From Lysobacterales bacterium (lineage in GTDB: Bacteria; Pseudomonadota; Gammaproteobacteria; Xanthomonadales; Xanthomonadaceae), in assembly GCA_019510125.1 (NCBI GenBank), contig JAEKKX010000009.1:62001-126000 (forward strand): a stretch of DNA of 64,000 bases, written 5' to 3'. The position numbers were made by a program, and so were the translations under genes. The stretch's first letter is position 1. Each line of letters begins with the position of its first letter. The notes beneath the pieces were generated by a model. That model ran no database searches and was not told where the DNA came from. It saw only the letters and a list, made by a program, of their open reading frames with translations. This document shows, piece after piece, positions 1-38,064 of this stretch.

Positions 1-11913
<11,913 letters not shown>

Positions 11914-11950: not shown

Positions 11951-12217
11951 TCAGGCGCTCTGTCCCAGTGCCCGCTCGTACACCCCGCACAGATCGCCGA
12001 CCGTGCGGATGTCGGTGATCATCACGTTCTCGTCCTCGAACGGATCGACCTCCAGCGTTTCCTCGAGCCGCGCGATCAGCGCCGCGACCGTCATCGACGA
12101 AAAGCCGAGCTCGTCGACGATTTCGGCGTCGTCCCGCAGTTCCGGCAGCGCGAGGCCGCGCTCCTCGGCGATCTCGCCGATCACGCCGCGCACCCTTTCC
12201 TTGACCGTTGCATTCAT
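11951..12217 (-). CDS. Free-standing acyl carrier protein
   Basis: Predicted 88-residue acidic carrier protein with the phosphopantetheine site in LGFSSMTVA (serine about residue 40-41). It lies 37 bp upstream of PKS C and 15 bp after the SDR gene. Together with the AMP-ligase and SDR genes it forms a plausible small module that activates a carboxylic acid, holds it as a thioester and reduces it, giving a starter or side-chain unit. The usual D in the DSL motif is replaced (FSS), which is tolerated in free ACPs. The substrate cannot be read from the sequence. Confidence 0.88.
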   Translation of the reverse strand: MNATVKERVRGVIGEIAEERGLALPELRDDAEIVDELGFSSMTVAALIARLEETLEVDPFEDENVMITDIRTVGDLCGVYERALGQSA

Positions 12218-12232: not shown

Positions 12233-12970
12233 TCAGACTGTGAGACCGCCGTCGACGACGATGGTCTGGCCGGTGATGAAACTGGATTCGTCGGACAGCA
12301 GGAACCTGACGACGGCGGACACGTCGTCCACGGACCCCAGGCGCCCCGCGGGCGTCTGCCGGATGATCCGCGCCTTCTTCTTGTCCGAGAGCACGGAGGT
12401 CATGTCCGTCTCCATGAAACCCGGCGCGATCGAGTTCGCGCGGATGCCTTCCGAGCCCAGCTCCTTGGCGAGGCTGCGGGTCAGGCCGTCGAGCGCCGCC
12501 TTGGTCGTGCTGTAGGCGGCGACGCCCCTGAAGCCGCGGATGCCGACCACCGACGAGACGTTGATGATCACGCCGAAGCCGCCGACGATCATCTGCTTGA
12601 CGCAGGCCTGGGCCAGCGCGATCGCGCCGGCGAGGTTGACCTGCAGCATCTGCTCGACCTCGGAGGGCCTGGCCATCGCGATCAGGCTTTCGTGGGCGAC
12701 GCCGGCGCTGTTGACCAGGTAGCCGACGCGGCCGTAGCGCTGCTTGACGTTCTTCATGAACCCCGAAAGCTGGCGGCGATCCGAGATGTCGACCGCCTCC
12801 CAGTACAGGTGCTCCGGATGCGCCGACATCAGCGCTTCGAGTTCCGGCGTCCTCTTCCTGCTGAAGGTCGCGACACGATAACCGTCCTCGACCAGCGCTG
12901 TGCAGATGCTCAGTCCGAGCCCCCGGCTGCCGCCGCTGACGATCGCGACCCGTTCTTTCTTTTCCGTCAT
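12233..12970 (-). CDS. SDR-family 3-oxoacyl-ACP reductase (FabG-like)
   Basis: This 245-residue classical short-chain dehydrogenase has the cofactor motif GGSRGLG (about residues 13-19), the NSAG motif, a catalytic Ser in INVSS, and YSTTK with the Tyr/Lys pair. The C-terminal GQTIVVDGG is typical of FabG relatives. It lies between the AMP-ligase (34 bp upstream) and the free ACP (15 bp downstream), so a reduction of an ACP-bound keto group is likely. A role in fatty-acid synthesis proper is less likely because the other fab genes are absent. Confidence 0.9.
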   Translation of the reverse strand: MTEKKERVAIVSGGSRGLGLSICTALVEDGYRVATFSRKRTPELEALMSAHPEHLYWEAVDISDRRQLSGFMKNVKQRYGRVGYLVNSAGVAHESLIAMARPSEVEQMLQVNLAGAIALAQACVKQMIVGGFGVIINVSSVVGIRGFRGVAAYSTTKAALDGLTRSLAKELGSEGIRANSIAPGFMETDMTSVLSDKKKARIIRQTPAGRLGSVDDVSAVVRFLLSDESSFITGQTIVVDGGLTV

Positions 12971-15415: not shown

Positions 15416-15466
15416 GTCCGTTTCCATTGAAGATGAGTAGTGCGACGTGCGCGTGCGTCCCGGGCC

Positions 15467-16675: not shown

Positions 16676-16733
16676 CGCGTGCTCCATCGCTGCTCGTGCT
16701 TTCGTTGACCTCGGCGCCCGGGGCGGGCGCGCT

Positions 16734-18116: not shown

Positions 18117-18201
18117 GATGCCCCTCGATGATGTCCCCGTGCCCACCGGCCTCGCCGCGGCGGCAGGATGCCGCTACGTCGGCGCGCGCTCGCGCCTTCC
18201 C

Positions 18202-19770: not shown

Positions 19771-19781
19771 CTGGACGGCGC

Positions 19782-20681
19782 TCAGTGCTGGATGTCGGCG
19801 CGGAACTTCTCGAGGTTCCGCTCGCGGAACGCGAAATCGGTCAGGGCGCGCTGGCTGAGGAATTCCGGATCGACCTGCACGTTGTGGCGCATGGCGGTCT
19901 TGTCCATCTGGCTGATCCGCGACGTGCCGAGGTTGTTCATCACGACCTTGGTGACGACGTAGACCCCGTCGATCTTCTTGAGGCCGCTCTGGATCCTCTG
20001 CTTGTAGATCTTGCCGTTGCGGTACATGTCCTCCTTCAGGGTGAGGAAGGACTGCTTGTCGATCCAGGCGACCACCTTCTGGTACCGGGTCTTGCGCGCG
20101 CGCTCGGGCTTGGGCGTGATCTCGACCACCCACACCGGACGGTTCTGGTAGGTCGTCTCCTGCAGCAGCTTGTAGGTGTACTCGTAGACCTTGCGCGAAT
20201 CCGGATTCTCGGTGGTCTCGACCGAGAATTCGGAGCCGAAGACGCTGCCGCCCTCGTCCTCGTTGGCGATGACCCGGTTCACCTTCGCCAGCGCCGGCAG
20301 GTACACCCAGTTGTCGTTCTCGCGGCCCTTTTCGCCGTATTCGTAGACGAGCAGGCTTGATCCCTTGTCGCTGGAAGGCTCGCGGACGATCGAGAGCAGC
20401 CTCGCGTTGTAGAGACCGTCGATGATGTCGACCTTCTTGACGTTCTCGGTGAGCACGACGCGCGGCTGCTCGGAGCACTTCACCTTGCCGTCCACCATCC
20501 TGTACTTGCAGGTGGTGATCCTGGTGGTCGAGAGCTGGGTCGAGAACGCCTTGCGGGTGGCGTGGTCGGCCTTGACCATGATGTCGTCGACCGACAGTGC
20601 GTTCTCCGCGGAAGTGGTGAGGCTCGGAAGGAACAGGAGCGCCGTCACGAGGGTCAACTGCTTGATGTTGTCGAGTTTCAT
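19782..20681 (-). CDS. LolA-like periplasmic outer-membrane lipoprotein-sorting protein
   Basis: A 299-residue protein with a signal peptide (about 1-25) and a LolA-like single-domain beta fold. Recognisable patterns are the DDIMVKAD start, YEYGEKGRENDNWVYLPALAKVNRV, and KVVAWIDKQSFLTLKEDMY. This family (often named outer membrane lipoprotein-sorting protein) is commonly encoded beside RND/MMPL transporters and shuttles hydrophobic molecules through the periplasm. Here it lies 144 bp after the RND gene and 11 bp before the barrel gene, so it probably passes the polyketide or a lipid conjugate from inner to outer membrane. Confidence 0.87.
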   Translation of the reverse strand: MKLDNIKQLTLVTALLFLPSLTTSAENALSVDDIMVKADHATRKAFSTQLSTTRITTCKYRMVDGKVKCSEQPRVVLTENVKKVDIIDGLYNARLLSIVREPSSDKGSSLLVYEYGEKGRENDNWVYLPALAKVNRVIANEDEGGSVFGSEFSVETTENPDSRKVYEYTYKLLQETTYQNRPVWVVEITPKPERARKTRYQKVVAWIDKQSFLTLKEDMYRNGKIYKQRIQSGLKKIDGVYVVTKVVMNNLGTSRISQMDKTAMRHNVQVDPEFLSQRALTDFAFRERNLEKFRADIQH

Positions 20682-20739
20682 GTCGTTACCTGGATTTGCG
20701 ATGGCGAGCGCCCCGGGAGGACGATCGAGCGTGCCTGGA

Positions 20740-20753
20740 CCAGACTTGTCTGG
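20740..20753. promoter_or_regulatory. Small inverted repeat between RND and LolA-like genes
   Basis: A perfect CCAGAC-TT-GTCTGG palindrome sits in the 144-bp gap between the exporter and the LolA-like gene. It could be an operator for internal regulation or an mRNA hairpin. The rest of the gap shows no reading frame. Confidence 0.35.
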
Positions 20754-20825
20754 ATCGAACTTGCGAGGGCCGGGCGGAAGGCATCGGATGGCGGGCGTCG
20801 GCCGGGATGCCGACGCCGCTCCTGC

Positions 20826-23429: not shown

Positions 23430-23483
23430 CCACAACTCCTGAAGTGTCCGCCGGCCCGTGAGGGTCGGCGCTGTCGAATTCGG

Positions 23484-26400
23484 TCAAACGGCCCGCGCCG
23501 TGCGCTTCCCTGCCCGCGGCTTGCGCTGCGGCGCCGCTTTCGCGGCGAACATGCGTTTCGCGACCTCGCCGGCCGCGGGCTTCTCGACGATCGAGAAGTG
23601 ATCCGCCGGCACCACGTGGACCGCCGGCGCGCGGGCGAGGAACCGCCCCCATCCGTAGTCGTCCGGGGCGCCCGCGTACGATTCGGCGGCGCGGAACAGG
23701 GTCACCTCGAGCGCACCCGGGATGGGTTCCGCGACGTATGCGCGGCACTGCCGTTCGCTGGCGGTGGCGACCGCGTACATCGCCATGAACCGATCCTCCG
23801 GAACGGCCAGCCCCGCCTTGCGCGCGTGCGCGAGCAGGAAGTCCGCCCGCTGCGCCTCCGGCACCCCGGCGAGCGTGTCGGCATCGAGCCCGGTCGCGCC
23901 GTCCGCCGCGCCCAGCAGGCGACCGAACACGGCGAGCATCATCGCTTCGACCGGCGCGTCGCGCAGATCCGGGAACAGCGTGTCGACCAGCGCCAGCGAA
24001 GCGACCCGTTCGCCGTCCGCGCGCAGTTGCCGCGCCATCTCGAACGCGACCACGCCGCCGTTGGAATAGCCGAGCAGCGCGTACGGACCCTCCGGCTGCA
24101 CGCGCTTCATGGCGCGGAGATAGAGCGCCGCCGTTTCCGCGACGCTGTCGGGAAGCGGTCCGCGGCCGTCGAGCCCGGGCGACTCGATGCAGTGGAAGGG
24201 GTGCGACGCGCCGAGCGCATGCGCGATCTGCTGCATCGAAAGCGCGTTGCCACCGGCGCCCGGGATCGCGAACACCGGCTGCGCCGCGCCTTTCGGCTGC
24301 AGCGTGACCACGCAGTCGCGGAGCATGGCGTCGTCGATGGGCTGCGCGCCGGCCTCCGGCAGGGCGTCGGACCGCCCTGCCCCGCCCTGCGGGACCGTCG
24401 ATCCGACGGCGGGCCGTCCGCACTGCGCGGCGACATGGCGCGCCAGCGCCCCGATGCTCGGGTGGGAGAAGATCGCGGCCGGACTCAGGCGGGTGCCGCA
24501 GGCGGCGTCGAGGCGGACGATCATCTCGGCGATCGACAGCGAGTCCATGCCCAGCTCGAGGAAGGTCCGGTCGTCGTCGACCGCCTCGGGCGCGATCCGG
24601 GCGCGGCTGGCGACGTACTCGCGCAGATCCGCCAGGATGGCGTCTTCCCCAGGCGCATGGGGCGCTTCCGCGCCCGGGGCGGCGGCGGCCGATGCGGACG
24701 CGCGCGCATCGCCGCGCGGTGCGGCCGGCGCGATCGGAGCGATCGGAGCAAGCTGTTCCGACCGCGTCGCGGCGTCCAGCGCCGGCGTCCCGTCGATGGC
24801 GAAGCGCTCGCCCTCGAAGGGATAGCACGGAATCGAGATCCTGCGCGCGTCGCCCTCGTCGCGCTGGCGCGCCCAGGGCATGCGGACGCCGTTGACCCAG
24901 AGCATCGCGACCTGCCGCCACTCGCGCTTCTGCTCGCACGCGAGCAACTGAAGCTCCGCCATTTCCGCGGTGATCAGCTTCGCCAGCGGCTGTCCTTCCG
25001 CCGCGGCGCTGCTGCCGACGTGGATGTCCTTCGCTTCGAGGGCCTTGTGCGCGTCGAAACCGCGATCGAGCAGGAAGCGCAGCTTCTCCAGCAGTTCGAT
25101 CCGGCTGGAAGCGACGATCGCGAGGCGCTCGCGGAAATCCACGCGGCCGCGCTGGGCCGTATGCACGATCGCGGCGAAGGTGTCCGCCTGATCCTCGCGC
25201 GACAGGAACGCGACGTAGCGCTCCGCGTAGCGTCGCAGCGTCGGCAGGTCGCGGGCCGAGAGCACGAACAGCCTGGGCACCCCGGGCGTCCGTTCCGCCG
25301 CGGTGCGATGTCCGTTGTCGTGCGCCTCGACCACGATGTGGACGTTGGCGCCGCTGTCGGCGAAGGAATTGACGCCGGCCCGCAGCGGGCCGCCGTCGCC
25401 GCCGCGGAGATCGGCTTCGGTCAATTCGCGGTCGGCGATGTACAGCGGATGCCGATCGTCCGCCACGTCGAGGAAACTGCTGAGCCTGCGCACCGTCGTG
25501 GTCGGCGGCATCCGCCTGTGGTGCAGGCCCAGCGCGACCTTGATGAGGCTGGCCAGGCCGCTGACCGGCTCCAGGTTGCCGATATTGCCCTTGACGCTGC
25601 CGAGCGCGAGCGACTTGCCACCGCCCCTGCGATCGCGGAACGCCGCCTTGATGCCTTCGTACTCGAACGAGTCCGCCCACTTGCTGGCGTAACCGTCGAC
25701 CTCGACGTAGCGGACCGTCGCCGGGTCGATCCCGGCGCGTTCGTAGCAATCGCGGAGCACCGCGGTGATCGCTTCGTGCCTGACTTCCGAGATGTGGCGC
25801 GCGGCCCCGCGATGGTTCTCGTGGCAGGCGCGGATCACGGCGTAGATGCGGTCGCCGTCGCGCTCGGCGTCGCCGAGCCGCTTGAGCAGCAGCGCCGCGA
25901 CGCCCTCGCCGCGGACGAAGCCGTTGGCGTCCTCGTCGAACACGCCGTTGCTGCCGTCCGGCGACAGGATGCCGTACTGCGACGCCGCGATGTAGTCGCC
26001 CGGGGTCAGGTGCAGCGAAGCGGCGGCAACGATGGCGGCGTCGCTTTCGCCCTGGCGCAGCGACTGGAACGCGCGGTTCACGGCGACCGCGGCGGACGCG
26101 CAGTTGACGTTGAACGCTTCGCTCGGCCCGCAGACGTCGAGCACGTGCGACACCCGGTTCGCCAGGTAGTAGGACGGACTCGAGGAACTGAACGGCGGCT
26201 TCCCGCTCGCGCCGTCCGGCTTCCGCCGCATCAGTTGCTCGAACTCGGAATATTCGTAGCCGACGAAGACCCCGGTCCGGGTCCCCGCGAGCACGGTCGG
26301 TGCGTAGCCCGCGTCCTCGATCGCGCGGTAGCTCTCCTGCATCAGCAGCCGCAACTGCGGGTCCATCATCGCGGCTTCTTCGCGGGAGACGCCGAAGAAG

Positions 26401-27212
26401 TCGGCGTCGAACCGATCCACGTCCTCCAGCAGCGCGCCCCACTTGGACACGGTGCGGCCGGCCTCGATGCGCGGCGCGTAATGCGCGGTCCAGTCCCAGC
26501 GCGTGACCGGGATCTCGGTCACGCTGTTCCTGCGTGCGATCAGGTTGTCCCAGAACGCCAGCGGATCGCCGGCGTCCGGGAAGCGGCAGCTCATGCCCAC
26601 GATCGCCACCGCATCGAGCCCCACGGGCGCCGCATGGCGCGCAGGGCGGACGGGCGCGAGGCGATAGTGCTGCGCGAGCGCTTCGGCGTGCTGTTCGACC
26701 AACGCATCGGCGATCGCCTCGATCGAACCGAATTCGCGGTAGGCCAGCTCGACGCCGTACAGGCGCTCGGCGCGCTCGACCAGGCGGGCGAGCCTGGCCG
26801 CGTCGCCTTGTCCGACAGCCGCGGCGACAGGCGCATTCTCGGGCGCGGCGACGGGCGCGGCGACTGGCATGGCGACGGGCGCGGCCGTTGCCACCGGAAG
26901 CGTCACAGTGCGCGCGATCGCGGGCGCCGCCGGTTGGGCCGGCTGGCCCGACCCGCCTTCCGCCTCCTCGATCATCGACTCGAGCAATCCGGCCAGATCT
27001 CGGGTCGTCTCGACGCCCGCGAAATCGGCCGGCGTGAGCGTCACCGCGAATTCGCTCTGGATGTTCGCCATCAGCTCCATCGCGATGAGCGAGTTCACGC
27101 CGAAGCTTTCCATCCCGGCATCGACGTCGATCCGGTCGGCCGGCACCTTGAGCATGCGCTCGATCAGCCGGAGCACGTCGCCGAGGACATCCCGTTCCAT
27201 CACGCTCGCCAT
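23484..27212 (-). CDS. Terminal polyketide synthase (PKS B): ACP-KS0-ACP-thioesterase
   Basis: A 1,242-residue terminal synthase. Domains: ACP (Ser41 in GVNSL), a 100-residue Ala/Pro linker, KS (about 190-620), ACP (Ser891 in GMDSL) and type I thioesterase (about 965-1220; GYSNG with Ser1050, later DHFSIV with the likely His). The KS keeps Cys371 (NCASA), but both catalytic histidines are gone. The usual EAHGTGT reads EVDGYAS (Asp506), and the usual NIGH reads NIGN (Asn546). It is therefore a non-elongating KS0 that can only pass the chain to the last ACP before hydrolysis or cyclisation. Its ATG overlaps the TGA of the small upstream gene by one base, so translation is coupled. There is no AT. 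Confidence 0.95.
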   Translation of the reverse strand: MASVMERDVLGDVLRLIERMLKVPADRIDVDAGMESFGVNSLIAMELMANIQSEFAVTLTPADFAGVETTRDLAGLLESMIEEAEGGSGQPAQPAAPAIARTVTLPVATAAPVAMPVAAPVAAPENAPVAAAVGQGDAARLARLVERAERLYGVELAYREFGSIEAIADALVEQHAEALAQHYRLAPVRPARHAAPVGLDAVAIVGMSCRFPDAGDPLAFWDNLIARRNSVTEIPVTRWDWTAHYAPRIEAGRTVSKWGALLEDVDRFDADFFGVSREEAAMMDPQLRLLMQESYRAIEDAGYAPTVLAGTRTGVFVGYEYSEFEQLMRRKPDGASGKPPFSSSSPSYYLANRVSHVLDVCGPSEAFNVNCASAAVAVNRAFQSLRQGESDAAIVAAASLHLTPGDYIAASQYGILSPDGSNGVFDEDANGFVRGEGVAALLLKRLGDAERDGDRIYAVIRACHENHRGAARHISEVRHEAITAVLRDCYERAGIDPATVRYVEVDGYASKWADSFEYEGIKAAFRDRRGGGKSLALGSVKGNIGNLEPVSGLASLIKVALGLHHRRMPPTTTVRRLSSFLDVADDRHPLYIADRELTEADLRGGDGGPLRAGVNSFADSGANVHIVVEAHDNGHRTAAERTPGVPRLFVLSARDLPTLRRYAERYVAFLSREDQADTFAAIVHTAQRGRVDFRERLAIVASSRIELLEKLRFLLDRGFDAHKALEAKDIHVGSSAAAEGQPLAKLITAEMAELQLLACEQKREWRQVAMLWVNGVRMPWARQRDEGDARRISIPCYPFEGERFAIDGTPALDAATRSEQLAPIAPIAPAAPRGDARASASAAAAPGAEAPHAPGEDAILADLREYVASRARIAPEAVDDDRTFLELGMDSLSIAEMIVRLDAACGTRLSPAAIFSHPSIGALARHVAAQCGRPAVGSTVPQGGAGRSDALPEAGAQPIDDAMLRDCVVTLQPKGAAQPVFAIPGAGGNALSMQQIAHALGASHPFHCIESPGLDGRGPLPDSVAETAALYLRAMKRVQPEGPYALLGYSNGGVVAFEMARQLRADGERVASLALVDTLFPDLRDAPVEAMMLAVFGRLLGAADGATGLDADTLAGVPEAQRADFLLAHARKAGLAVPEDRFMAMYAVATASERQCRAYVAEPIPGALEVTLFRAAESYAGAPDDYGWGRFLARAPAVHVVPADHFSIVEKPAAGEVAKRMFAAKAAPQRKPRAGKRTARAV

Positions 27213-27460
27213 CAGTCCAGCTCCTCGCACAGGGCTTCGAGGTCGGCCAGCACCCGCTGCCGCAGCGCTTCGAGGCGACCCGTCGCGACATCCCGTCCGT
27301 CCGCGAGCGCAGGGTGCCGCTGCAGGCGCGCGACGAGCGCGGCCTGTGCGTCCGCGTCCAGTCGCCGGAAGGCCTGCAGTGCGTCGTCCTTGCCGATGCC
27401 GCGCTCCAGCAGCGCATGCACCAGGTCTTCCGACAGCGTGTTCGTTCCGTGGTCGCTCAT
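27212..27460 (-). CDS. Small helical linker protein between PKS A and PKS B
   Basis: An 82-residue acidic, helix-rich protein (begins MSDHGTNTLS, ends EALCEELD) with no family I recognise. Its ATG overlaps the PKS A stop as ATGA, and its own TGA shares a base with the PKS B start. It is thus locked between two PKS genes that split one module (KS and degenerate DH on PKS A, the ACP on PKS B). Length, composition and coupling fit a discrete docking protein or a stability partner. This is inference from position only. It is not an ACP, as there is no DSL-like serine site. Confidence 0.75.
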   Translation of the reverse strand: MSDHGTNTLSEDLVHALLERGIGKDDALQAFRRLDADAQAALVARLQRHPALADGRDVATGRLEALRQRVLADLEALCEELD

Positions 27461-30400
27461 GGGGTCCGTTCCGGGATGCGTGCGGCCGGGGTCTCCGGGC
27501 GTTGGCGATGCAACGGGCCGACGTCGCCCGGCCGGCCGCGTTCGAGCGTTTCGAGCAGCGCCAGGAAGGCCGCTTCCGAAGCGCGCGCCGGGCCGCCGTC
27601 GCCGAAGCGCATGCCCCGGGCGCGCACGCAGACCCTGCCCGCGTCGTCGAGCAGGTCGAAATCGACGGCGGACGCCGCGTCGCCCGTTTCCGTCGCGAGG
27701 CGCACCTCCACCCGGATGCTGCCGCGGCAGGGCGCGAACACCTGCAGCGAGGACAGGAACGCAGGCCGCGCATCCGCCGCGCCGCTTTCGCCGGCGGCGA
27801 GGATCGCCGCCGCATGGACGGCGCTTTCGATCAGTTCCGGGGGAACGGTCCACGTCCGCGACGCATCGTCCGCCTGCCCGCCTTCGATCAGCCCCCCCTG
27901 GACCACCTCCGTCGCGAACCCGAATCGCCCCGGCGCGTGCAGGACCGGACCGCTGGCCCGCCACTGCCGGGCGAGCGCATCGAGGGCCAGTCGCGGAAAG
28001 CCCCCGGGCTCAGCTCCGCCGGCGCTGTCCGTCACCGCATCGAACGGCGCCGGGCCTGCGGAAGGCCTGTCGGCGCGGCGCAGCATCCGGCCGCGGCCGC
28101 GGCAGCGCAGGCGCCGCGCTTCGCGCGCCGGCGCAGGGTCGCGCTGCGGGGAGGCAGGCTTGTCGAAAGCGTTCGCCTCGAGGTCGTGGATCTCGAAGTC
28201 GACCCCGCCCTCCCCGCGTTCGAACAGATCGATCAGCAGGGTGCGGCCCGCCATGGTCGTCGGCAGATCGCACCAGGCGACGTCCGCAAGTTCGATGCCG
28301 ACCGCCTGCGCCTCGCCGACGAGCGCGAGGCCGAGCGCGGCAGAGGCCATCCCCGCGAGGGCGAGCGCGGACGGCCGGCCGACGGCGTCCGCCGGGAAGC
28401 GCTGCGTGCCGCCGAACCGCGAGCGGTAGCGCTGCAGCCGCAGGGTCGAGACGTTCTCATGCACCAGCGGGTGCAGCAGCGCGGCCGCGCCGTGTCGGCT
28501 GCCGGCGGCGGAATGCGCTCCACCGGCCTCGACCCAGTGGCGGTCGGGCGCGAACGGATAGGTGGGCAGGGACACGCGCCGCGTGCCGGTCGCGGGCCCG
28601 ACGGCCCCGGCTCGCCAATCGATTTCGGCGCCCTCCACCCACGCGCGGACCTGCGCCACCGGATCCCCGGCGAGCGGGCCCGGGGCCGCACCGTCGGCGG
28701 CGGCCTTCTGGCGGCGGGCCCGGCCGGCGAACAGGCCTTCGGGCCGCTCGCCGGCGGCGAACGCCTCGAACAGCCGCGCCGCCTGCGCGGTCGATTCGGC
28801 GACGAAACCCAGCCGTTCCTCCATCGCATCGCGGCCGACCTGGAGCGTGTAGGCCAGGTCGGACAGCGGCACGGCGTGCTCGCGCAGATGGCGCGCCATC
28901 GATGCCGCGTAGGCGCGCAGGCGCTCGGGATGCTTCGCCGAGAGCACGATCGGCTGCGGCCCGGGCGCGGACGCCGCGTCGCTGCGCGCCGGCAGCCGGT
29001 ACTCCTCGAGCACGGCGTGCGCGTTGGCGCCGCCCCACCCGAACGAACTCACCCCGGCGACCAGCGGCTGGGCGCTGCCGTCGGTTCCACGCGCGGGCTG
29101 CCAGGGCGTCGTCCTGTCGACGATGTAGAACGGGCTGCCTTCCAGGTCGATGTAGGGATTGAGCGTCTCGAAATGCAGCAGCGCCGGGATTTCGCGATGG
29201 CGGATCGCCAGCAGTACCTTGAGCAGGCTCGCCATCGCGGCCGCGGGCTCGAGGTGGCCGATGTTGGTCTTGACCGAACTGAGGCCGCAGTGCGGCACCT
29301 TCGGCGCGGCGTGGCCGTGCTGGCGGTAAAGGTCGGAAAACGCCTTCTTCAGCGCCTGGATCTCGATCGGATCGCCGAGGCTGGTGCCGGTGCCGTGGCA
29401 CTCGATGTAGCCGACCGACGCCGGATCGACGCCGGCGCTGGTGTAGGCCTCGGTCAGCAGTTCGGCCTGCGCCTTGGGATTGGGGGCGGTGAGCATGGTC
29501 ACGCGGCCGCCGTGGTTCTCGGCGGTGGCCTTGATCACCGCGTACACCGGGTTGCCGTCCTCCAGCGCCTTCGCCAGCGGCTTGATGAAGATCGCACCCG
29601 AGCCTTCGCCGCGGACGTAGCCGTTCGCGGACTTGTCGAACGCCTTGCACTTGCCGTCCGGGCTCAGCATCCCGGCGGTGCTCAGCGAGACGTGGCCGAT
29701 CGGCGTCAGCATCACCTGCACGCCGCCGACGATCGCCATCTCGCTGCTGCCGGTGTGGATCGATTCGATCGCCCGGTGCAGCGCGACCAGCGAGCTGGAA
29801 CAGGCGGTGTCCAGCGGCGCGCTGGGGCCGCGCAGGTTGAGCAGGAAGGAAATCCGGTTCGCCAGGATCGAATGCGAATTGCCCGACGCGGAGAAGCCGT
29901 CGAGGGTCGAGTGCTGTTCCGACAGCACGTCGATGTAGTCCTTGGCCGACACGCCGACGAACACGCCGGTCCGGGTCCCGGAGAGATCCGAGACCCGGTG
30001 GCCCGAATCCTCGATCGCCGCCCAGACCGTCTCGATGAAGATCCGCTGCTGCGGGTCCATCATCTCCGCCTCGCGCGGCGTGATCCCGAAGAACAGCGGA
30101 TCGAAGCGGTCGACGTGCTTCATGAAGCCGCCCCAGCGCGAGTACGACGTGTTCGCCTCTTCCGCCGGGTTGCCGTCGTAGTCTTCCCACGTCCAGCGAT
30201 CGCGCGGGATCTCGGTGACCAGGTCGCGGCCCGCCCGCAGATGGCCCCAGAACTCGTCCAGCGTGTCCGACTGCGGCATCGTGCCCGCGATGCCGACGAT
30301 CGCGATCGGCATCTCCCGGAAGCGATTGCGCGCGCCGCCGGACCAGGCGGCGCCGGGGGCGGCGGCCGCGGGCGGCGCCGGCGGCTGCCAGCCCTTGTCG

Positions 30401-33400
30401 ATCGCGAAGGGAGTCGTCGCGGCCTGGGTCGCCGCCGGGGTCGAGACGGCGATCGCCGCGGGCGTCGCCGCGGCGATCGCGCGATCCGCCGGTGTCGACC
30501 CCGAAACCGGCGCGCCGTGCGCGTTGCGCATGGCGGCCGCGTGCTCGTCGACCAGGACGCCGGCGATCGCGTTGATCGAGGGATACTCGAAGAACATCGT
30601 CGGATTGATGTCGAGCCCGTAGCGCGCATTCAGCGCGTTGGCGAACCCGGCGAGGCCGATGGAATCGAAGCCGAGGTCGAGCAGGATGCTGTCGAGCGAC
30701 AGGTCGTCCTCCTCGATCTTCAGCATCTCCATCACGATGCCGGACAGCGAGGCGACGACCGTGGACCGCAGGTCGCCAGCCGCTTCGTCCGACGCCGCGA
30801 CCGACGGCGCGGCGGCAGGCGTCGCTCCGGTCGCCGCGGACGCTTTCGGCTCGGCGATGCCCCAGGCCGATTCGATCTTGTCGGCGACGCCCTCGAGCAC
30901 GGCGAGCTGCGCCTGCTCGGACATCAGTCCGCGTTCGAACGCGCGCAGGCCGAAGTCGGTCCCCAGGGGCTTGATGCCGAGCTTGGTGCGGAAGAACAGC
31001 TCGGTCTGCTCGTCGAGCTTCATCCCGCCTTCGGCCCACAGCGACCAGTTCAGGCTGAGGCTGTGGCCGCGACGCTCGCCGCGGGCGCGGCGCCGCTCGC
31101 GCAGCGCGGCGTGCGCGTCCATGAAGTGGTTCGCGTAAGCGTAGTCGCACTGGCCGGCATTGCCGAACGCCGCGAGCGAAGAGAACAGCGCGAAGAAGTC
31201 GAGGTCGTCGTCGGCGGTCAGTTCGTCCAGCAGCAGCGTGCCGTCGACCTTCGGCGCCAGCACCGCGCGCATTTCGTCGCGGGTCTTCTTCCAGAGGAAG
31301 GCGTCGCGCAGCACGCCGGCGCTGTGCAGGACGCCGTCGATGCGGCCGAAGCGCGCCCTGGCCTCGGCGAGCAGCCGCGCCACGTCCTCCCGGCACGACA
31401 CGTCGGCGGCGACGTGCAGCACCTCCGCGCCCGCCGCTTCCAGCGACGCGACCCGGGCCCGGCTCGCGTCCGACAGCGCCGACCGGCCGGTCAGCACCAG
31501 CCGCGCCCGGCACGTGCGCGCGAGGTGCTCGGCGAAGATCAGGCCGAGCCCGCCGACACCGCCGGTGATCACGTAGACGCCGCGGTGGCGCAGCGCAGCG
31601 CCGACGCTGCCGGCGGCCGGGAGCGCGTCGTCGTCGAGCCGGTACAGCGTCCGTTCCGCGCGCACGCCGTCGACCCAGCGGACCGCGACGGCCTGGCGGG
31701 TGCGCTCGTCCAGTTCCGCGCCCACGCAGGCGGCGAACCGGTCGGGCGCGGCCGCGGCGCGATCGAGGTGCAGGACCTTGCATTCGATCCTCGGGTTCTC
31801 CAGGCGCACCGTCCTGGCGAAGCCGGCGAGCGCCACGTCGAGCGGGTCGGCCTCCTCGCCGTCGGCGCCGTGCGCGCACAGCAACTGCACGGCCTGCTTG
31901 GCCTTCCCGGCCATCAGCGCCTGGCACAGGAACAGCAGCGCATGGACGCCCAGGTCGAGGGTCGCCTCGACCGTATCGCGGCGCGCGTCCAGCGGCCAGG
32001 CAAAGCAGAGTTTCCCGCTGTTCCAGCCGGCCCCGCGCACGGCTTCGATCAGCCGGACGTAGTCGTCGCGGTTGCGCGGGTCGATGGTGTAGGCGTCGTC
32101 GCCCAGCGCCGCGAACGCCGCGCCGGGACGCACGCGCCAGACCCGCCCGGCCGCGGCGAGCGCATCGCCGCGTCGCGGGTCGGTCTCGAACAGCAGCACC
32201 TGGCCGAGTCCGGCCGGGGCGTCCGGCGCGGGCGTCGTCACCCAGCGCTGGCCGTAGAACAGTTCCGCGAAACCGTCGGCGTCGACCGCCGGCCTCGGCG
32301 CTGGCGACGGTGCGGACGGCGCGGCCACCGCGGCGACCTCGCTTGGCGCGGCCTCGGCGCCGCGGGACGCCTCCGCCTTGCCGTGGACGACGTTCAGCGG
32401 AACGCCGACCGACTCGCGGATGCGCATCAGCACGCGCCCGGTCTCGTCGAGGATCTCGAGATGCTGCTTCGCCAGGCCGCCGGTGGCGCTGCGATCGCCG
32501 GGCGAACGGGTCAGGTGGCTGTAGCAGGTCCTGGTCAGCGGGTGCAGCCGTTCGATCTCGCCGATCGAATACGGCACGCGCATTTCGCCGGTGTCGCGAC
32601 ACAACTGCGCGGCGACGCCGGCCTGCATGGCGGCGTCGAGGATGCACGGATGGAACACGAAGTCCTCGAAATCGCCGTCGCGGACCTCGGGCAGGCGCAG
32701 CAGGCCGAGCACTTCGTCGTCGTTCGCCCAGACCGTCTCGAGCAGGCGGAAGCTCGGCCCGTAGCGGAGGCCGACCCGCTCGAACAGCGGGTAGACCGTG
32801 CCGACGTCGGCGACCTGCGCGCAACGGGCGCGGATCGCCTCGAGATCGACGTACTCGGCGGGCGCGGACGCGACCGGGTCGGCGGCGTACAGCAGCTTGC
32901 CCTGGCAGTACGTCGTCCGCGCCCCGGCAGCAGCGTCGGCGTCGGCGAAGACCTCGAACAGCACGCCGTCGGCCGCGGGCCTGAGCTCGACCATCGCCGG
33001 CGTCGGCGAAGCCGCGTGCGCCGTCAGCGGACTCACCCAGGTGATGTTGCGGACGCGATCGACCCGCGCGCCGGCGGCGACCTCGCCGGCCTTGCGCGCG
33101 AGATCGACGTAGGCCGTACCCGGCAGCGTCGGCACCCCGGACACCACGTGGTCGTGGAGGAAGAACTCGTCCTCGCGGAATGACTTCCTGAACAACTGGC
33201 GCTGGAAGGTCGATTCGTTGCTGTCGATCAGCGGATGCAGCCCGGCGATCGCGCCAGCGACCGGGGCGTGGCGACGGGTCGGGTCCGGCAGCCAGTGGCG
33301 CTTGTCGGCGAAGGGATAGGTGGGCAGCGAGATCCGGCGGCCGTCCGCGGTCATGCCGCGGCAGTCCGCGAGCAGGCCCTCGGCCCACAGTTGCGCGATC

Positions 33401-36400
33401 TTGTGCGGCGCCTGGCGCTGCGACAGCAGTTCGAGGAATTTCGAGCGCTCCTCGTGGCTCAGCAGCCTGGCGATGCCGTCGGCGTTCCTGGCGTTTCCGG
33501 CGACGATGTCCGGATCGTTCGCGCCCGCCGCGTAGCGGCGCAGCTTCGCGACGAGGTCGGGCACGCCGTCGGCGACGATCGCCAGCCGGTGATCGAACGA
33601 CTTGCGGCCGTCCTGCAGGGTGAACGCGACATCGCCGGCGCGCGGCGGCGGCTCGGTCGTCTCCAGGCGACGGCACAGCGCCGCGGCCATGGCCCGCAAC
33701 TGGTCCTCGTTGCGGGCCGAGAGCGGGAACACCCGCGGACCCGCATCGCCGGATTCCACGCCGCGGTCGGCCGCCTCGAACGACTCGATGACGACATGGG
33801 CGTTGGCGCCGCCGGCGCCGAACGAGCTGATGCCGGCGCGCAGCGGCAGCGCCCGGCCGTCGAGCCGCTTCGGCGCCCACGGTTCGAGCGTGCGCTGGAC
33901 CCGGAACGGCGACGAGGAGAAATCGATGTGCGGATTCAGCGCCTCCGCGTGCAGCGACGGCGCCAGTTGGCGATGCTTGAGCTGGAGCAGGACCTTGCTG
34001 ACGCCGGCCAGCCCGGCCGCCGCTTCCAGATGGCCGATGTTGGTCTTGATCGAGCCGATCGGGACGCTGCCGACGCCCGCGTGGCCGGAGCCGAAGGCAT
34101 GGTCGAGGCCCGAGATCTCGACGGGATCGCCGAGCTCGGTGCCGGTGCCGTGCGCCTCGATGTAGCCGATCGAATCGGGCTCGACCCCGGCCTTGCGCAG
34201 CGCGGCGGCGATCAGCGCGCCCTGCGCCTTGGGGTTCGGGACGGTGTAGCTGCTGGTGCGGCCGCCGTGGTTGACCAGCGCGCTCTTGATCACGCCGTAG
34301 ACCTGGTCGCGATCCTCGATCGCCTTCGCCAGCGGCTTGATCAGGATCGCGATGACGCCTTCGCCGGCGACGTAGCCGTTGGCGCCGGCGCCGAACGTGC
34401 GGCAGACGCCGTCCTTCGACAGCGCCCCGCCGGCGTTGTTGATGTCGAACTTGTGCTGGTGCAGGTCGAGGTTGACGCCGCCGACGATGGCGCTGTCGCA
34501 GCCGCCGCCGCGGATCGCTTCGCAGGCGAGCTGCAGCGCGGTCATGCTGGAGGAACACGCGGTGTCGACCGTGAGGCTCGGCCCGGTCAGGTTCATCCAG
34601 TAGGAGACCCGATTGGCGATGCTCCACAGGAACGAGTTCGGGTGCAGTTCGTCCCCGAGCACTTTGCGCTCGACGCCGAGCATCTGGTACATCGTCCAGA
34701 CCGCGCCGACGAAGACGCCGACGTTGCGCGGCGCATTGTCGGGGGCGAGGATCTCGGGATAGTAGCCGGCGTCCTCCAGCGCTTCCCACGCCACCTCCAG
34801 GAACAGCCGCTCCTGCGGGTCGAGCATCTCGGCTTCGCGCGGGGAGACGTTGAAGAACAGGGAGTCGAAGCGGTCGATGTCGTCCACGAACCCGCCGCGA
34901 TAGCGGCGCGAGAACCCGGTGTGCAGCCGGCGCGCGTAGCGCGACTCGGGCAGTTCCTCGATGCAGTCGACGCCGTCGCGCAGATTGCGCCACAGCGCTT
35001 CGGCGTCGCGCGCCCGCGGATAGCGTCCGGCCAGGCCGACGATCGCGATGTCGAAACTCTCGTCCGTCGCCGCCGGCGGGACGACGGACGCGCCTCCCGG
35101 CGTGGCCCGCGCGGTGCGCGGAGTGTCGATCCTGACTGCAGGCGCATCGACGGCCGGCGCGCCCGACCCGGCGACGTCCGCATCGCGGACCGGCGACGAC
35201 GCCGGATTCAGGTAGCCGAGCAATGCGTACTTCGCGTGGACATCGCCCGGCGCGTCGGCGCCGGACAGCCGCGGCACGTTGGGCATGCCGGCGAAGGCCG
35301 CCACCAGCCGCCGGGCGATCTCGTCCGCGGCGGACGCCGCGAGGCCCACCGGGATCGCCAGCCGGATCAGCCGGTTCAGCGCGGTGCCCTTCTGCATGCC
35401 GACGCTGTGGGCGGCGGCCCGGACGCCGGTGTTGAGGTACAGGAACGCGAGGCATTCGGCGACCGGCAGCGCGGAGCCGGCGAATGCCGGGATCGCCCCG
35501 GCGTCGATCAGGACGCAGTGCCCGCCGACCGGCGCGACGACCGGCACCCCGGCCGCGTCCAGCGCCTTCCAGATCGTCTCGACGGCACGGACGCGGCGAT
35601 CGATCTGCAGTTCGATGTGGCGTCGGTCCTGCAACGCGAGGCCGACAAGCTTCTTCTCGATGACGTCCAGGCCGCCGCCGTCCTGGTCCAGGACCTTCTG
35701 CAGGCGGCGCAGCAGCGACGGGTCGCGGGTCGCGACCAGGCCGCCCTTGTCGATGCAGAAATCCTTGGCGAGGCTGCCGATGATCGCGTCGGCGAACCCG
35801 AGCAGTGCGCGCGCGGCCTGCCACATCCCCTCGCCCGCCGTTCCGGAGCCGTCGCGGGTCAGGAACCATGCGTTCTCGAGCACGCGGGTGGCGTCGACGA
35901 CCAGCGGGATCGAACGCGGGGCGAGCAGCGCCTTGACCTCGCGCAGGTGCTCGATGGCGATCGGCACGCCGCCGGCCGCGTTGTCGCTGACCTCGATGCA
36001 GACGTAGGCGATGTCGTCGCCGTGCGCCGCCAGTTCCTCGCGCAGCGCATCCAGGCACAGTCCGGCCTTGGCCGGATCGTGCGACCGCAGGTCGAACAGC
36101 GCCGGATGCGGCAGTTCGCGCGGGGTGAATCCCTTGTCGATCTGGTGGTAGAGGCAGGTCGGGAACAGCAGGTTCTGCAATACCCGGCCCTTGCGCTCGA
36201 AGGCCTTGCACAGCAGGTGGTCGGCGCTGCGTCCGGCGTCGGTCAGCACGAAATGCTCGAACGGGAAGATGGCCCGGAGCTGTTCGTGCAGGTTCACCGG
36301 CTGCTGCAGGCGGCTGCGCAGGTGCGCCATGCGCTTGCCGACGAAGGCGCTGTCGAGCTGCGCCCAGGAGTCGGTCTTGAGGTCGAAATCGACTTCCGCG

Positions 36401-38064
36401 GACGCGAGGTTGAGCGGATTGAAGCCCGCTTCCGCCAGCGCGCGCGCACGGGGAACGTCCACCGAGGCGTCCATGCCCGCCTCCGCAACGGCGGCGGGTC
36501 GCGCCGCGGGCGCGCCCACGGCACGGGGCACGGGCGGGTTGTGGTTCTCGGTGTCCGGGGTCTGCGCCTTCGCCGGGTCCGCGATCATCATGATGATGTC
36601 GAGGACGTTGTCGGCAGGGCCGGCGTCCTTCGGGCGGCAGAGGTAGATCGTCCGGTTCTCGGGGCGGAACTTGTTCTTGAACTGCAGGTTGCCTTCGTCG
36701 TTGAAGATCTTCTGGCTGTGCAGGTCGTCGAGGATCCTGTCGACCGCCGGGTCGGCATGCGGCGACGTCTCCAGCCGGCAGCCGTAGGTGCCGCCGAGGC
36801 TGAGCATGTCCCGCCCTTCGGCCACCAGCGCCGCGATGATCTGCACGATCGCGTATTCGAGCCCGCCCAGCGGCATCTCCGGCGGGTAGAACTCCAGGTC
36901 CATCAGATAGCCGTTGAGCGCCCCGCTCATCCCCGAGATGAGGATGACGTTCTGCAGCGCATCGTCGAGATAGGTCAGGAAGATGCGGTGCTGGGGATGC
37001 AGGCTGCCGTCGAGGATCTCCTGGCGGACGATGTGGATCAGCGGGTTGACCATCGTCCTGGCTTCGCACCAGCGGTCGATGATCCCGGCGATGGCGCGGT
37101 CGGTCGCCGGATCGCTGCCGCAGGCGTATTCGACCGTGCGGCAGGCACCGCTCTTCTCGAACTTGCCGACGAGGTAGCGCAGGCGACGCATCGCGCCGCC
37201 CTCGAGGGTGAAGTGCTTGAGGTCGAGGATCCGCTGCAGCGCGCCGAACGGCGTGGACGAGTACGCGGTGTCGCCGATCGATTCCAGCACTTCGTCGATG
37301 AAGAAGTTGAGCTGGAAGCCCTTCTCCACGCAGTAGCGCTGCATCTGTTCGGCGATCTCGCCGAACAGCGCCTGGGGCCCGGTGTAGGCGTAGACCAGGA
37401 TCAGCCGGCCGCTGCGGCTGTAGTTGAAATACCCGCGCCGCTGGCTGTCGATGAACAGGTTGGGGGCGATGTTGCGGGTGCCGCGCGAGACGCAGCCTTC
37501 GTTCTTGTACTGCTCGTAGATGGCCTGCAGCGCCGACTGCAGCGCCGGGAACGCTTCGAGGTCGCGCTCGAGCATGCGCACGCTTTCCGCAGGCGGCTCC
37601 GGCGACGGCGGCTCCGGCGGCGGCTCGACCGCATGCGCCTGCGCGCGCGCTGCGCCGGCCTGCGCCGCGCGCCCGGGCGTCGGGTGAGGGATCGGCGCCG
37701 ATGCCGATGCCGGGTCCGGAATGGCGACGGCCGGCGTCGCATCGACCGAAGTCGGCCGGGCGGTCGTGGACGTCGACGTGGACGTGGACGTGGAGAACTT
37801 CGCGACCAGCGTGTCGGCATGCCTGTCGACGAAGTACCGGGCCAGCGATTCGATGTTGAAGTTCTCGAACAGCAGCGTCTTCGGCAGCGTGCCGAAGTCC
37901 GCTTCCAGCGCCTTGATGATCTTGAGGACGCGGAAGGAATCGACGCCGAGATCGCCGAACGACGTCGCCGCATCGAACCCCGACCGGGCGATGCCGCTGC
38001 TTTCGGCGACGAGAGACGCGAGGTAGCGCTCGGTCGGCTCGATCAGTTGCGTTCGATCTGACAT
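27457..38064 (-). CDS. AT-less polyketide synthase (PKS A) with embedded DUF2156 and PLP beta-lyase domains
   Basis: A 3,535-residue first PKS of the operon. Order: ACP (Ser43 in GVDSF), Ser/Thr/Pro linker, DUF2156/GNAT-like domain (about 164-495), tryptophanase-like PLP domain (about 547-929; Asp724, Lys767), KS (about 1005-1430; Cys1170), DH (about 1600-1870; HVVSGVPTLP with His1639, and DAAMQ), KR (about 2155-2345; TGGVGGLG, DYAYAN), ACP (Ser2468), KS (about 2582-3015) and a degenerate DH-like tail (about 3190-3510) with no catalytic motif. The starting ACP must belong to a module that begins on another protein, and the final KS continues onto the ACP of PKS B. The ATG at 38064 has GAGGT just upstream. 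The stop overlaps the next start (ATGA). The DUF-PLP pair resembles the sulfur-inserting DUF-SH didomain of leinamycin synthases. Confidence 0.95.
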   Translation of the reverse strand: MSDRTQLIEPTERYLASLVAESSGIARSGFDAATSFGDLGVDSFRVLKIIKALEADFGTLPKTLLFENFNIESLARYFVDRHADTLVAKFSTSTSTSTSTTARPTSVDATPAVAIPDPASASAPIPHPTPGRAAQAGAARAQAHAVEPPPEPPSPEPPAESVRMLERDLEAFPALQSALQAIYEQYKNEGCVSRGTRNIAPNLFIDSQRRGYFNYSRSGRLILVYAYTGPQALFGEIAEQMQRYCVEKGFQLNFFIDEVLESIGDTAYSSTPFGALQRILDLKHFTLEGGAMRRLRYLVGKFEKSGACRTVEYACGSDPATDRAIAGIIDRWCEARTMVNPLIHIVRQEILDGSLHPQHRIFLTYLDDALQNVILISGMSGALNGYLMDLEFYPPEMPLGGLEYAIVQIIAALVAEGRDMLSLGGTYGCRLETSPHADPAVDRILDDLHSQKIFNDEGNLQFKNKFRPENRTIYLCRPKDAGPADNVLDIIMMIADPAKAQTPDTENHNPPVPRAVGAPAARPAAVAEAGMDASVDVPRARALAEAGFNPLNLASAEVDFDLKTDSWAQLDSAFVGKRMAHLRSRLQQPVNLHEQLRAIFPFEHFVLTDAGRSADHLLCKAFERKGRVLQNLLFPTCLYHQIDKGFTPRELPHPALFDLRSHDPAKAGLCLDALREELAAHGDDIAYVCIEVSDNAAGGVPIAIEHLREVKALLAPRSIPLVVDATRVLENAWFLTRDGSGTAGEGMWQAARALLGFADAIIGSLAKDFCIDKGGLVATRDPSLLRRLQKVLDQDGGGLDVIEKKLVGLALQDRRHIELQIDRRVRAVETIWKALDAAGVPVVAPVGGHCVLIDAGAIPAFAGSALPVAECLAFLYLNTGVRAAAHSVGMQKGTALNRLIRLAIPVGLAASAADEIARRLVAAFAGMPNVPRLSGADAPGDVHAKYALLGYLNPASSPVRDADVAGSGAPAVDAPAVRIDTPRTARATPGGASVVPPAATDESFDIAIVGLAGRYPRARDAEALWRNLRDGVDCIEELPESRYARRLHTGFSRRYRGGFVDDIDRFDSLFFNVSPREAEMLDPQERLFLEVAWEALEDAGYYPEILAPDNAPRNVGVFVGAVWTMYQMLGVERKVLGDELHPNSFLWSIANRVSYWMNLTGPSLTVDTACSSSMTALQLACEAIRGGGCDSAIVGGVNLDLHQHKFDINNAGGALSKDGVCRTFGAGANGYVAGEGVIAILIKPLAKAIEDRDQVYGVIKSALVNHGGRTSSYTVPNPKAQGALIAAALRKAGVEPDSIGYIEAHGTGTELGDPVEISGLDHAFGSGHAGVGSVPIGSIKTNIGHLEAAAGLAGVSKVLLQLKHRQLAPSLHAEALNPHIDFSSSPFRVQRTLEPWAPKRLDGRALPLRAGISSFGAGGANAHVVIESFEAADRGVESGDAGPRVFPLSARNEDQLRAMAAALCRRLETTEPPPRAGDVAFTLQDGRKSFDHRLAIVADGVPDLVAKLRRYAAGANDPDIVAGNARNADGIARLLSHEERSKFLELLSQRQAPHKIAQLWAEGLLADCRGMTADGRRISLPTYPFADKRHWLPDPTRRHAPVAGAIAGLHPLIDSNESTFQRQLFRKSFREDEFFLHDHVVSGVPTLPGTAYVDLARKAGEVAAGARVDRVRNITWVSPLTAHAASPTPAMVELRPAADGVLFEVFADADAAAGARTTYCQGKLLYAADPVASAPAEYVDLEAIRARCAQVADVGTVYPLFERVGLRYGPSFRLLETVWANDDEVLGLLRLPEVRDGDFEDFVFHPCILDAAMQAGVAAQLCRDTGEMRVPYSIGEIERLHPLTRTCYSHLTRSPGDRSATGGLAKQHLEILDETGRVLMRIRESVGVPLNVVHGKAEASRGAEAAPSEVAAVAAPSAPSPAPRPAVDADGFAELFYGQRWVTTPAPDAPAGLGQVLLFETDPRRGDALAAAGRVWRVRPGAAFAALGDDAYTIDPRNRDDYVRLIEAVRGAGWNSGKLCFAWPLDARRDTVEATLDLGVHALLFLCQALMAGKAKQAVQLLCAHGADGEEADPLDVALAGFARTVRLENPRIECKVLHLDRAAAAPDRFAACVGAELDERTRQAVAVRWVDGVRAERTLYRLDDDALPAAGSVGAALRHRGVYVITGGVGGLGLIFAEHLARTCRARLVLTGRSALSDASRARVASLEAAGAEVLHVAADVSCREDVARLLAEARARFGRIDGVLHSAGVLRDAFLWKKTRDEMRAVLAPKVDGTLLLDELTADDDLDFFALFSSLAAFGNAGQCDYAYANHFMDAHAALRERRRARGERRGHSLSLNWSLWAEGGMKLDEQTELFFRTKLGIKPLGTDFGLRAFERGLMSEQAQLAVLEGVADKIESAWGIAEPKASAATGATPAAAPSVAASDEAAGDLRSTVVASLSGIVMEMLKIEEDDLSLDSILLDLGFDSIGLAGFANALNARYGLDINPTMFFEYPSINAIAGVLVDEHAAAMRNAHGAPVSGSTPADRAIAAATPAAIAVSTPAATQAATTPFAIDKGWQPPAPPAAAAPGAAWSGGARNRFREMPIAIVGIAGTMPQSDTLDEFWGHLRAGRDLVTEIPRDRWTWEDYDGNPAEEANTSYSRWGGFMKHVDRFDPLFFGITPREAEMMDPQQRIFIETVWAAIEDSGHRVSDLSGTRTGVFVGVSAKDYIDVLSEQHSTLDGFSASGNSHSILANRISFLLNLRGPSAPLDTACSSSLVALHRAIESIHTGSSEMAIVGGVQVMLTPIGHVSLSTAGMLSPDGKCKAFDKSANGYVRGEGSGAIFIKPLAKALEDGNPVYAVIKATAENHGGRVTMLTAPNPKAQAELLTEAYTSAGVDPASVGYIECHGTGTSLGDPIEIQALKKAFSDLYRQHGHAAPKVPHCGLSSVKTNIGHLEPAAAMASLLKVLLAIRHREIPALLHFETLNPYIDLEGSPFYIVDRTTPWQPARGTDGSAQPLVAGVSSFGWGGANAHAVLEEYRLPARSDAASAPGPQPIVLSAKHPERLRAYAASMARHLREHAVPLSDLAYTLQVGRDAMEERLGFVAESTAQAARLFEAFAAGERPEGLFAGRARRQKAAADGAAPGPLAGDPVAQVRAWVEGAEIDWRAGAVGPATGTRRVSLPTYPFAPDRHWVEAGGAHSAAGSRHGAAALLHPLVHENVSTLRLQRYRSRFGGTQRFPADAVGRPSALALAGMASAALGLALVGEAQAVGIELADVAWCDLPTTMAGRTLLIDLFERGEGGVDFEIHDLEANAFDKPASPQRDPAPAREARRLRCRGRGRMLRRADRPSAGPAPFDAVTDSAGGAEPGGFPRLALDALARQWRASGPVLHAPGRFGFATEVVQGGLIEGGQADDASRTWTVPPELIESAVHAAAILAAGESGAADARPAFLSSLQVFAPCRGSIRVEVRLATETGDAASAVDFDLLDDAGRVCVRARGMRFGDGGPARASEAAFLALLETLERGRPGDVGPLHRQRPETPAARIPERTP
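35280..37575 (-). other. DUF2156 + tryptophanase-like PLP didomain within PKS A (candidate cysteine-lyase unit)
   Basis: The first half (37575-36580) matches the lysylphosphatidylglycerol-synthase C-terminal/DUF2156 pattern: FTLEGGAMRRLRYLVGKFEK, then NGYLMDLEFYPP, then a GLEYAIVQIIAALVAEG helix and a SLGGTYG end. The second half (36425-35280) follows tryptophanase/tyrosine phenol-lyase along its length: TDS near the start, DNAAGGVP before the cofactor, VVDATRVLENAWF with the PLP-N1 aspartate (Asp724), SLAKDF with the Schiff-base lysine (Lys767), and GGHCVLIDAG. The arginine in LIRLAIP corresponds to one that binds the substrate carboxylate in that family. A beta-elimination on an amino acid such as a cysteine adduct is therefore chemically possible. 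Confidence 0.85.
37769..37797. repeat. 6-bp tandem repeat in PKS A linker
   Basis: Consecutive gacgtg-type hexamers encode an (ST)n tract (STSTSTSTS) directly after the N-terminal ACP of PKS A. It acts as a flexible hinge between ACP and DUF2156 domain and is a likely slippage site. Confidence 0.8.

Follow-up and report, generated by a model that had tools for sequence, protein, structure and literature searches.

The SH domains of three leinamycin-family polyketide synthases (PKSs) are thiocysteine lyases, and 109 DUF-SH clusters fall into four families, three of them non-leinamycin, according to the accessible part of Meng et al. (2021; PMC8479088). In the leinamycin-type last module, the two acyl carrier proteins (ACPs) differ and beta-branching takes place on the first only; the available text of Phillips et al. 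(2024; PMC7618002) leaves open which of the tandem ACPs receives the sulfur, suggests the second ACP for off-loading, and describes non-leinamycin DUF-SH modules with a single ACP and no thioesterase (TE). Table 2 of Milano et al. (2013; PMC3870968) lists a protein of the order CP-DUF2156-PLP-KS-KR-CP-KS in Kordia algicida (A9ECY5) and one with the same order and a further KR in Lysobacter sp. ATCC 53042 (F8TUA6); the study treats PLP domains, and its available part gives no sulfur chemistry for these two proteins. Since such proteins and the DUF-SH families are, as far as the accessible parts of these papers go, already in print, the kind is a known one, and an earlier reading made from the sequence alone was mistaken in taking the known systems to be actinobacterial.

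The window studied here, i.e., the whole stretch of 64,000 nucleotides (70% G+C), corresponds to positions 62001-126000 of contig C7 in a 4.08 Mb genome of 44 contigs. It harbors PKS A (27454..38064), which is located on the minus strand, like every other gene and domain for which window coordinates are given below, and encodes 3535 aa from the ATG at 38064. Custom profiles gave the order ACP-DUF-SH-KS-DH-KR-ACP-KS-DH(degenerate) of a trans-AT PKS, and Pfam matched PP-binding, LPG_synthase_C/DUF2156 (PF09924, E 4.5e-14, aa 229-477), Beta_elim_lyase (PF01212, E 4e-22, aa 591-862), KS, DH and KR. The N-terminal ACP (37828..38049, aa 6-79) is of the Ser-Phe type without a Trp flag. It is followed by the DUF2156/LPG_synthase_C-like domain, the DUF of DUF-SH (36574..37575, aa 164-497; Pfam, custom profiles and structural model), the SH domain, which resembles PLP-dependent C-S lyases (35266..36456, aa 537-933; custom profile match aa 538-933), and a KS with its active-site residues kept in the custom profiles (33775..35046, aa 1007-1430). 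The remaining domains by custom profiles are DH (aa 1607-1884), KR (aa 2162-2338), an ACP, KS (aa 2588-3023) and a last, degenerate DH lacking the catalytic His motif (27619-28476, aa 3197-3482). The sequence-only reading had proposed an ACP, a DUF2156-like and a tryptophanase-like PLP domain and then KS modules at 35280-38064; translation and Pfam, with matches to both LPG_synthase_C and Beta_elim_lyase as it had anticipated, bear this out, and the interval fits the gene start at 38064 and the SH end at 35266. Its mid-chain placement of the didomain also holds, as two more KS modules follow in PKS A. The aminotransferase identity that would have counted against it was ruled out, as the 15 Pfam families listed for PKS A include no aminotransferase family. 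No adenylation domain was detected by Pfam in PKS A or PKS B; the leinamycin-type clusters are hybrid NRPS-PKS systems of eight modules.

When 84,980 genomes were scanned with a DUF alignment, 120 relatives were obtained, and loci were classified for the best 80 of them. Fifty-three carry ACP-DUF-SH-KS at the start of a PKS (designated type I) and belong to Pseudomonadota, Bacteroidota and Acidobacteriota; the ACP is a separate gene in six of these, L075 ends in SH at a contig end and L043 is broken over several frames. KS-DH-KR follows SH in 43/53 type I loci, and no TE was found after SH with two TE profiles in the available stretch of any of the 53. The actinobacterial loci (21 of the best 80, two Saccharothrix coeruleofusca records representing one species) show DUF-SH-TE after one or two ACPs, L108 being cut after SH. 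In the remaining six, which are acidobacterial or deltaproteobacterial, DH-KR-ACP directly precedes DUF-SH, with two ACPs in L096. The deltaproteobacterial MAG contig JAHZIX010000008.1 contains two different DUF-SH loci, L093 and L096, ∼13 kb apart. SH followed DUF in 79/80 loci with a score >60, the 80th, L075, running off its contig. The 40 less similar relatives may be largely actinobacterial, and since the best-80 cut favors window-like loci, the mid-chain form is not claimed to be the commoner one. Among these best 80 of 120, the named loci closest to the window come from Massilia, Lysobacter, Pseudoduganella and Lysobacteraceae records, and the window's genome is taken to be Lysobacter-like. 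SH was present in 8/11 genomes of the window's genus; DUF was absent from 24 genomes representing 24 other genera of the family, and 24 further genomes of the order gave one weak partial DUF match.

As far as Table 2 of Milano et al. (2013) gives them, the Kordia and Lysobacter proteins share the domain order of PKS A, and Kordia algicida was recovered here as one of the loci. Similarly, the non-leinamycin DUF-SH families of Meng et al. (2021) and the modules of Phillips et al. (2024) resemble the window, in the parts of these sources available, in having a single ACP, DUF-SH and no TE in the module. Membership of the window in one of the non-leinamycin families of Meng et al. (2021) is very probable.

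Alignment of the SH domain with a tyrosine phenol-lyase placed D724, K767 and R901 of PKS A opposite D214, K257 and Arg404 (the carboxylate Arg), and T564, S566, G611, R612, F634, N695 and R727 matched likewise. The aligned positions of the lyase are presumably PLP- or carboxylate-binding sites. The columns of D724, R727, N695, K767 and R901 were invariant in 80/80 SH rows (best 80 of 120 relatives), and the residue match is hence not due to chance; Asp724, Lys767 and a carboxylate arginine had been noted as kept in the sequence-only reading, and the arginine is R901. AlphaFold2 models of the DUF and SH domains were confident, with a mean pLDDT of 95.3 and 95.8, respectively. In the SH tree, built by a quick method without bootstrap and with an odd letter make-up in many rows, a split at 100 separated the 80 SH rows from five tyrosine phenol-lyase/tryptophanase rows, the 53 type I rows including the window formed one group (SH-aLRT 94), the 21 leinamycin-type rows grouped at 100 and the six acidobacterial/deltaproteobacterial rows fell in two places. 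The SH of Pseudoalteromonas luteoviolacea (L080) stood out as a flagged long end branch (1.1), perhaps with a changed function. Scores with the NCBIfam tyrosine phenol-lyase and tryptophanase models were 160.9 (cut-off 285) and 134.4 (cut-off 720.7). SH as one of these two lyases proper was ruled out, as it lies outside the free-standing clade and scores below both cut-offs.

A protein search of a plasmid collection matched 77 records, four of which covered at least 80% of the didomain. These four, all from Streptomyces or Kitasatospora, are leinamycin-type clusters whose DUF-SH shares 39.1-42.5% identity with that of the window over 88-95% of the query length. Genes for an LnmK-type acyltransferase/decarboxylase, a carrier protein and an HMG-CoA synthase are annotated beside the PKS in three of them; the fourth is unannotated, and its frame, inspected by eye, ends in ACP-ACP-DUF-SH-TE. 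The other 16 rows listed matched the PLP part only (15 annotated as tryptophanase or tyrosine phenol-lyase and one unannotated). Compared through stand-ins, namely the leinamycin-type loci of the scan and these plasmid clusters, the DUF-SH of LnmJ, GnmT and WsmR resembles that of the window in the homology of both domains, their order and the PLP residues kept. The window didomain is, by the homology of both its domains and the grouping of its SH with the leinamycin-type SH, a DUF-SH, as the sequence-only reading had supposed. That reading had spoken of an independent or mid-chain version. Only the second part of this stands: SH, DUF and the type of ACP appear to share ancestry with their leinamycin counterparts, and an independent origin is favored neither by the SH tree nor by the ACP type.

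The window is nevertheless unlike leinamycin in several respects. Its cassette opens a PKS and is placed mid-chain, carries a single ACP and has a KS, not a TE, after SH. The leinamycin-type terminal module KS-ACP-ACP-DUF-SH-TE was not seen, the TE of the window being in another protein (PKS B), and the sulfur module has no first ACP of the beta-branch type. To characterize the lone ACP, profiles were built from the 21 first and 21 second tandem ACPs of the leinamycin-type loci. The second-ACP profile was preferred by the lone ACP before DUF in 54/54 type I cases, the window included (49.5 bits vs 24.5 with the first-ACP profile), and by the ACP before DUF in 6/6 acidobacterial/deltaproteobacterial loci; it was preferred by 18/145 other ACPs of the loci and by 0/15 of the window's PKSs. 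The 145 other ACPs were those with a score >8 bits and a match to a loose pattern, frames >600 aa without KS, DUF or SH being skipped. The ACP preceding DUF in the window is thus most like the second tandem ACP of the leinamycin-type loci. A Phe after the carrier Ser was read in 51/53 type I loci (L047 and L049, misread by the pattern, have it as well), in 20/21 second ACPs (one unread), 0/21 first ACPs, 3/6 acidobacterial/deltaproteobacterial ACPs, 3/145 other ACPs (38 unread) and 0/15 other ACPs of the window; the Phe count is circular for six discrete ACPs, which were chosen by position and re-read with a pattern containing Ser-Phe. Only 8/54 type I ACPs beat the best of the 160 other ACPs with the second-ACP profile and 41/54 passed their 95th percentile, so the likeness is partly shared with a wider ACP class; the ACP tree has few columns and flagged long branches that meet. 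As the lone type I ACP is second-ACP-like and no TE was found after SH in the available stretches, the second-ACP type is more simply understood as the putative carrier for DUF and SH than as an off-loader.

The other PKSs of the cluster indicate where the chain on this ACP may come from. PKS C, D and E were parsed with custom KS, DH, KR and ACP profiles only, and the start codons of D and E are not fixed. PKS C, whose first part, with KS modules, occupies 1..11913 and which continues to about window -5963, ends in KS-DH, and PKS D starts with KR-ACP; PKS D ends in KS, and PKS E starts with DH-KR-ACP; PKS A ends in KS-DH, and PKS B starts with ACP. Since the other junctions of C, D, E, A and B pair up, the one ACP-less end that remains, the terminal KS-DH of PKS E, would fall to the ACP of PKS A. 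Hence, we infer that PKS E hands its chain to PKS A. The KS-DH end of PKS E was used as a query against the genomes of 43/53 type I loci, in sets of 20, 18 and 5 genomes (one genome in two sets), and was matched in all 20, 18 and 5. Without the C32-like loci described below, 37 loci in 36 genomes remained. The frame stops 1-24 aa past the KS-DH match in 36 of these 37, the 37th, of Aliikangiella, being cut short; KR-ACP directly precedes the partner KS in 21/21 loci of the first set. The His and Asp of the partner DH are kept in 37/37 loci and in the window, and the Cys and both His of the split KS in 38/38 rows (37 loci and the window); of the 22 rows tabulated for the DH motif HxxxGxxxxP, five have another residue in place of its Gly. 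A loading-module (starter-unit) reading of ACP-DUF-PLP was set aside because the other PKS junctions pair up and a PKS ends in KS-DH in 36/37 loci.

The split KS, keeping its Cys and both His, may condense. As the split module has no KR, its DH would then need a reductase acting in trans. The operon encodes a FabG-type short-chain reductase (12233..12970; Pfam, NCBIfam), possibly a trans ketoreductase; if the KS condenses, this protein would be a candidate to act before the DH, or else the sulfur would land elsewhere.

A second cassette is present in the same genome (C32:7899-21760, minus strand; L008/L009), with discrete ACP and DUF genes and an SH fused to KS-DH-KR-ACP-KS-KR-ACP-KS-ACP; it is adjoined by discrete KS and ECH genes, a P450 and a histidine kinase gene. 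In the SH tree it belongs to another subgroup of the same type I. A KS-DH partner was not found for this copy. In four of six loci of this C32-like sister type a partner was judged present, by the Gly of EGHGTGT and by position, and all four have a change at a DH catalytic position: the His is Leu in L131 and L153 (the latter cut by a contig end) and Thr in L152, and the Asp is Glu in L154; L155 and L156 gave no clear partner. With the DH of these partners broken, a DH-made acceptor cannot be general for type I. To judge from these residues, it is in keeping with the window's type but not with the sister type, in which the acceptor must be made otherwise than by the partner DH.

PKS B (23484..27815; start codon not fixed) has the order ACP-KS0-ACP-TE by Pfam and custom profiles, its KS lacking both catalytic His, and is the predicted end of the line. 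A discrete ACP ahead of PKS C (11951..12217; Pfam) is possibly the starter carrier. A beta-branching cassette is largely present, comprising HMG-CoA synthase, ECH and AT by Pfam and a further ECH and donor ACP by eye; no decarboxylating KS of such a cassette was recognized in the cluster. PKS C (window 1-11913 and L006) carries two pairs of tandem ACPs, each with the same Ser core of 16 residues and a Trp flag, and a long crotonase-like stretch seen by eye. Trp-flag ACP pairs are present in PKS C and D, with none in the sulfur module, and those of PKS C are predicted to serve beta-branching elsewhere in the chain. The acceptor in the window would apparently be derived from the DH of the split module, in contrast to leinamycin, where it comes from an HMG-synthase branch set on the sulfur module. 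Within the PKS operon, the region 14621-23435 encodes an MMPL-type exporter, a LolA-like protein and a GMC-type FAD enzyme, along with proteins of 406 and 268 aa that have no Pfam match and by eye resemble a membrane hydroxylase and a START-like lipid protein. No S-processing gene was recognized among the operon genes run through Pfam.

One member of the family can probably be linked to a described product. The trans-AT cluster of cuniculene is reported, in the parts of the sources available, from Aquimarina Aq78, Aq349, EL33, A. muelleri and RHTr2 (PMC9323603, PMC9860996). ACP-DUF-SH loci were found here in Aquimarina sp. Aq78 (L066), RhTr2 (L067) and A. muelleri (L051), and Aq78 also carries a KS-DH partner. 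All 13 matches over the cut-off to a RhiE-like KS-linker in Aq78 lie on its contigs C15, C21 and C32. The linker was also matched in the control genome of Corynebacterium glutamicum, which we take to have no trans-AT PKS, and is therefore a mere proxy for trans-AT PKSs. Open frames on contig C15 of Aq78 encode 3524, 1276 and 6447 aa, and the 4680-aa frame with the KS-DH end lies on C21; the length and positions of L066 fit a placement on C15. The cuniculene cluster thus very probably holds an ACP-DUF-SH cassette. The PKS of Aq78 is like the window in combining an ACP-DUF-SH-KS locus with a KS-DH partner, and the same product is not claimed for both. In the literature covered, which takes in few subscription journals, no report was found of a sulfur product from a Gram-negative DUF-SH cluster, nor of a fixed KS-DH partner, the ACP likeness or a product link for such a cluster; the split sulfur module, the second-ACP likeness of the lone ACP and the very probable presence of the cassette in the cuniculene cluster are apparently new.

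In its domain order, split, intact residues, ACP type and kinship, the ACP-DUF-SH part of PKS A is best read as the latter half of a sulfur-insertion module that is split and lies mid-chain. The chain would be passed from the ACP-less KS-DH end of PKS E to the ACP of PKS A, or elongated there, and dehydration would give an α,β-unsaturated thioester, to which DUF would add cysteine or thiocysteine via its sulfur. Cleavage by the PLP domain at the C-S bond of the amino-acid moiety would then set free pyruvate and ammonia, with SH or SSH remaining on the chain, and the next KS would continue for two more modules until release by PKS B, the sulfur presumably being retained in the product. From the enzymology of the relatives, it is considered quite probable that (thio)cysteine is added, and the adduct cleaved by the PLP domain, on the ACP of PKS A. 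A wider scheme is offered tentatively, with almost as much to be said for it as against it: ACP-DUF-SH would be one three-domain sulfuration cassette common to at least four phyla, with the Ser-Phe type ACP as its own carrier, and the Gram-negative form would act mid-chain on an enoyl thioester from the DH of a split KS-DH//ACP module. Carried over to leinamycin, this reasoning would place sulfur addition on the second of its tandem ACPs (pathway b of Phillips et al., 2024); products of the cuniculene type would likewise bear sulfur or go through a sulfur-bearing stage.

It is unlikely that the sulfur is transient, with (thio)cysteine addition and cleavage followed by thiol loss, the net result being no more than a shifted or newly set double bond in a polyene-like product. 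The KS-DH-KR order after SH in the 43 type I loci is indeed that of an ordinary polyene-type line, and the words "sulfur" and "thio" are absent from the accessible part of the cuniculene paper (PMC9323603), in which no structure appears. However, leinamycin-family products retain their sulfur, as stated in the available text of Meng et al. (2021), and an elaborate cassette is not expected to be kept over several phyla for a step that a DH could do. More doubtful still is a route in which DUF, like some of its fold relatives, uses aminoacyl-tRNA to load an aminoacyl group that then serves as the substrate of the PLP domain, with no plain addition of free thiocysteine. The DUF profile matched 11 PDB sequences, of which seven are labeled alanyl- or lysyl-phosphatidylglycerol synthases/transferases, three bear other names (acid-regulated proteins and one hypothetical) and one is a designed protein, and an FK-KF-P stretch is shared; the similarity is, however, weak (best E 1.3e-11 with the profile), and the published leinamycin model proposes a DUF-driven addition of thiocysteine. 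Elimination by the PLP domain from a non-cysteine adduct (tyrosine-, tryptophan- or serine-like), leaving no sulfur, is very improbable: tyrosine phenol-lyase and tryptophanase are among the sequence kin of SH, but SH groups with the leinamycin-type SH away from those lyases, its closest PDB sequence, 9cen_A, is labeled "Polyketide Synthase Protein", and, in the part of Milano et al. (2013) available, Tyr53 is replaced in the modeled Lysobacter domain and Arg381 is missing in all embedded domains aligned. That the didomain is a non-functional remnant, for which the DH of PKS A without a catalytic motif (aa 3197-3482) might be cited, is hardly credible against an open frame, intact key residues and SH in 8/11 genomes of the genus.

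With mid-chain sulfur insertion as the preferred reading, the strict conservation of the arrangement points to how the sulfur step may work. Sulfur-adding PKS domains yield reactive groups, e.g., that of leinamycin, and one member of the family probably makes a compound that has already been isolated, cuniculene. The second-ACP likeness of the lone ACP bears on the question of the leinamycin sulfur carrier. With its single ACP and fixed KS-DH partner, the system is simpler than the leinamycin module for asking which carrier is used and what DUF acts on.
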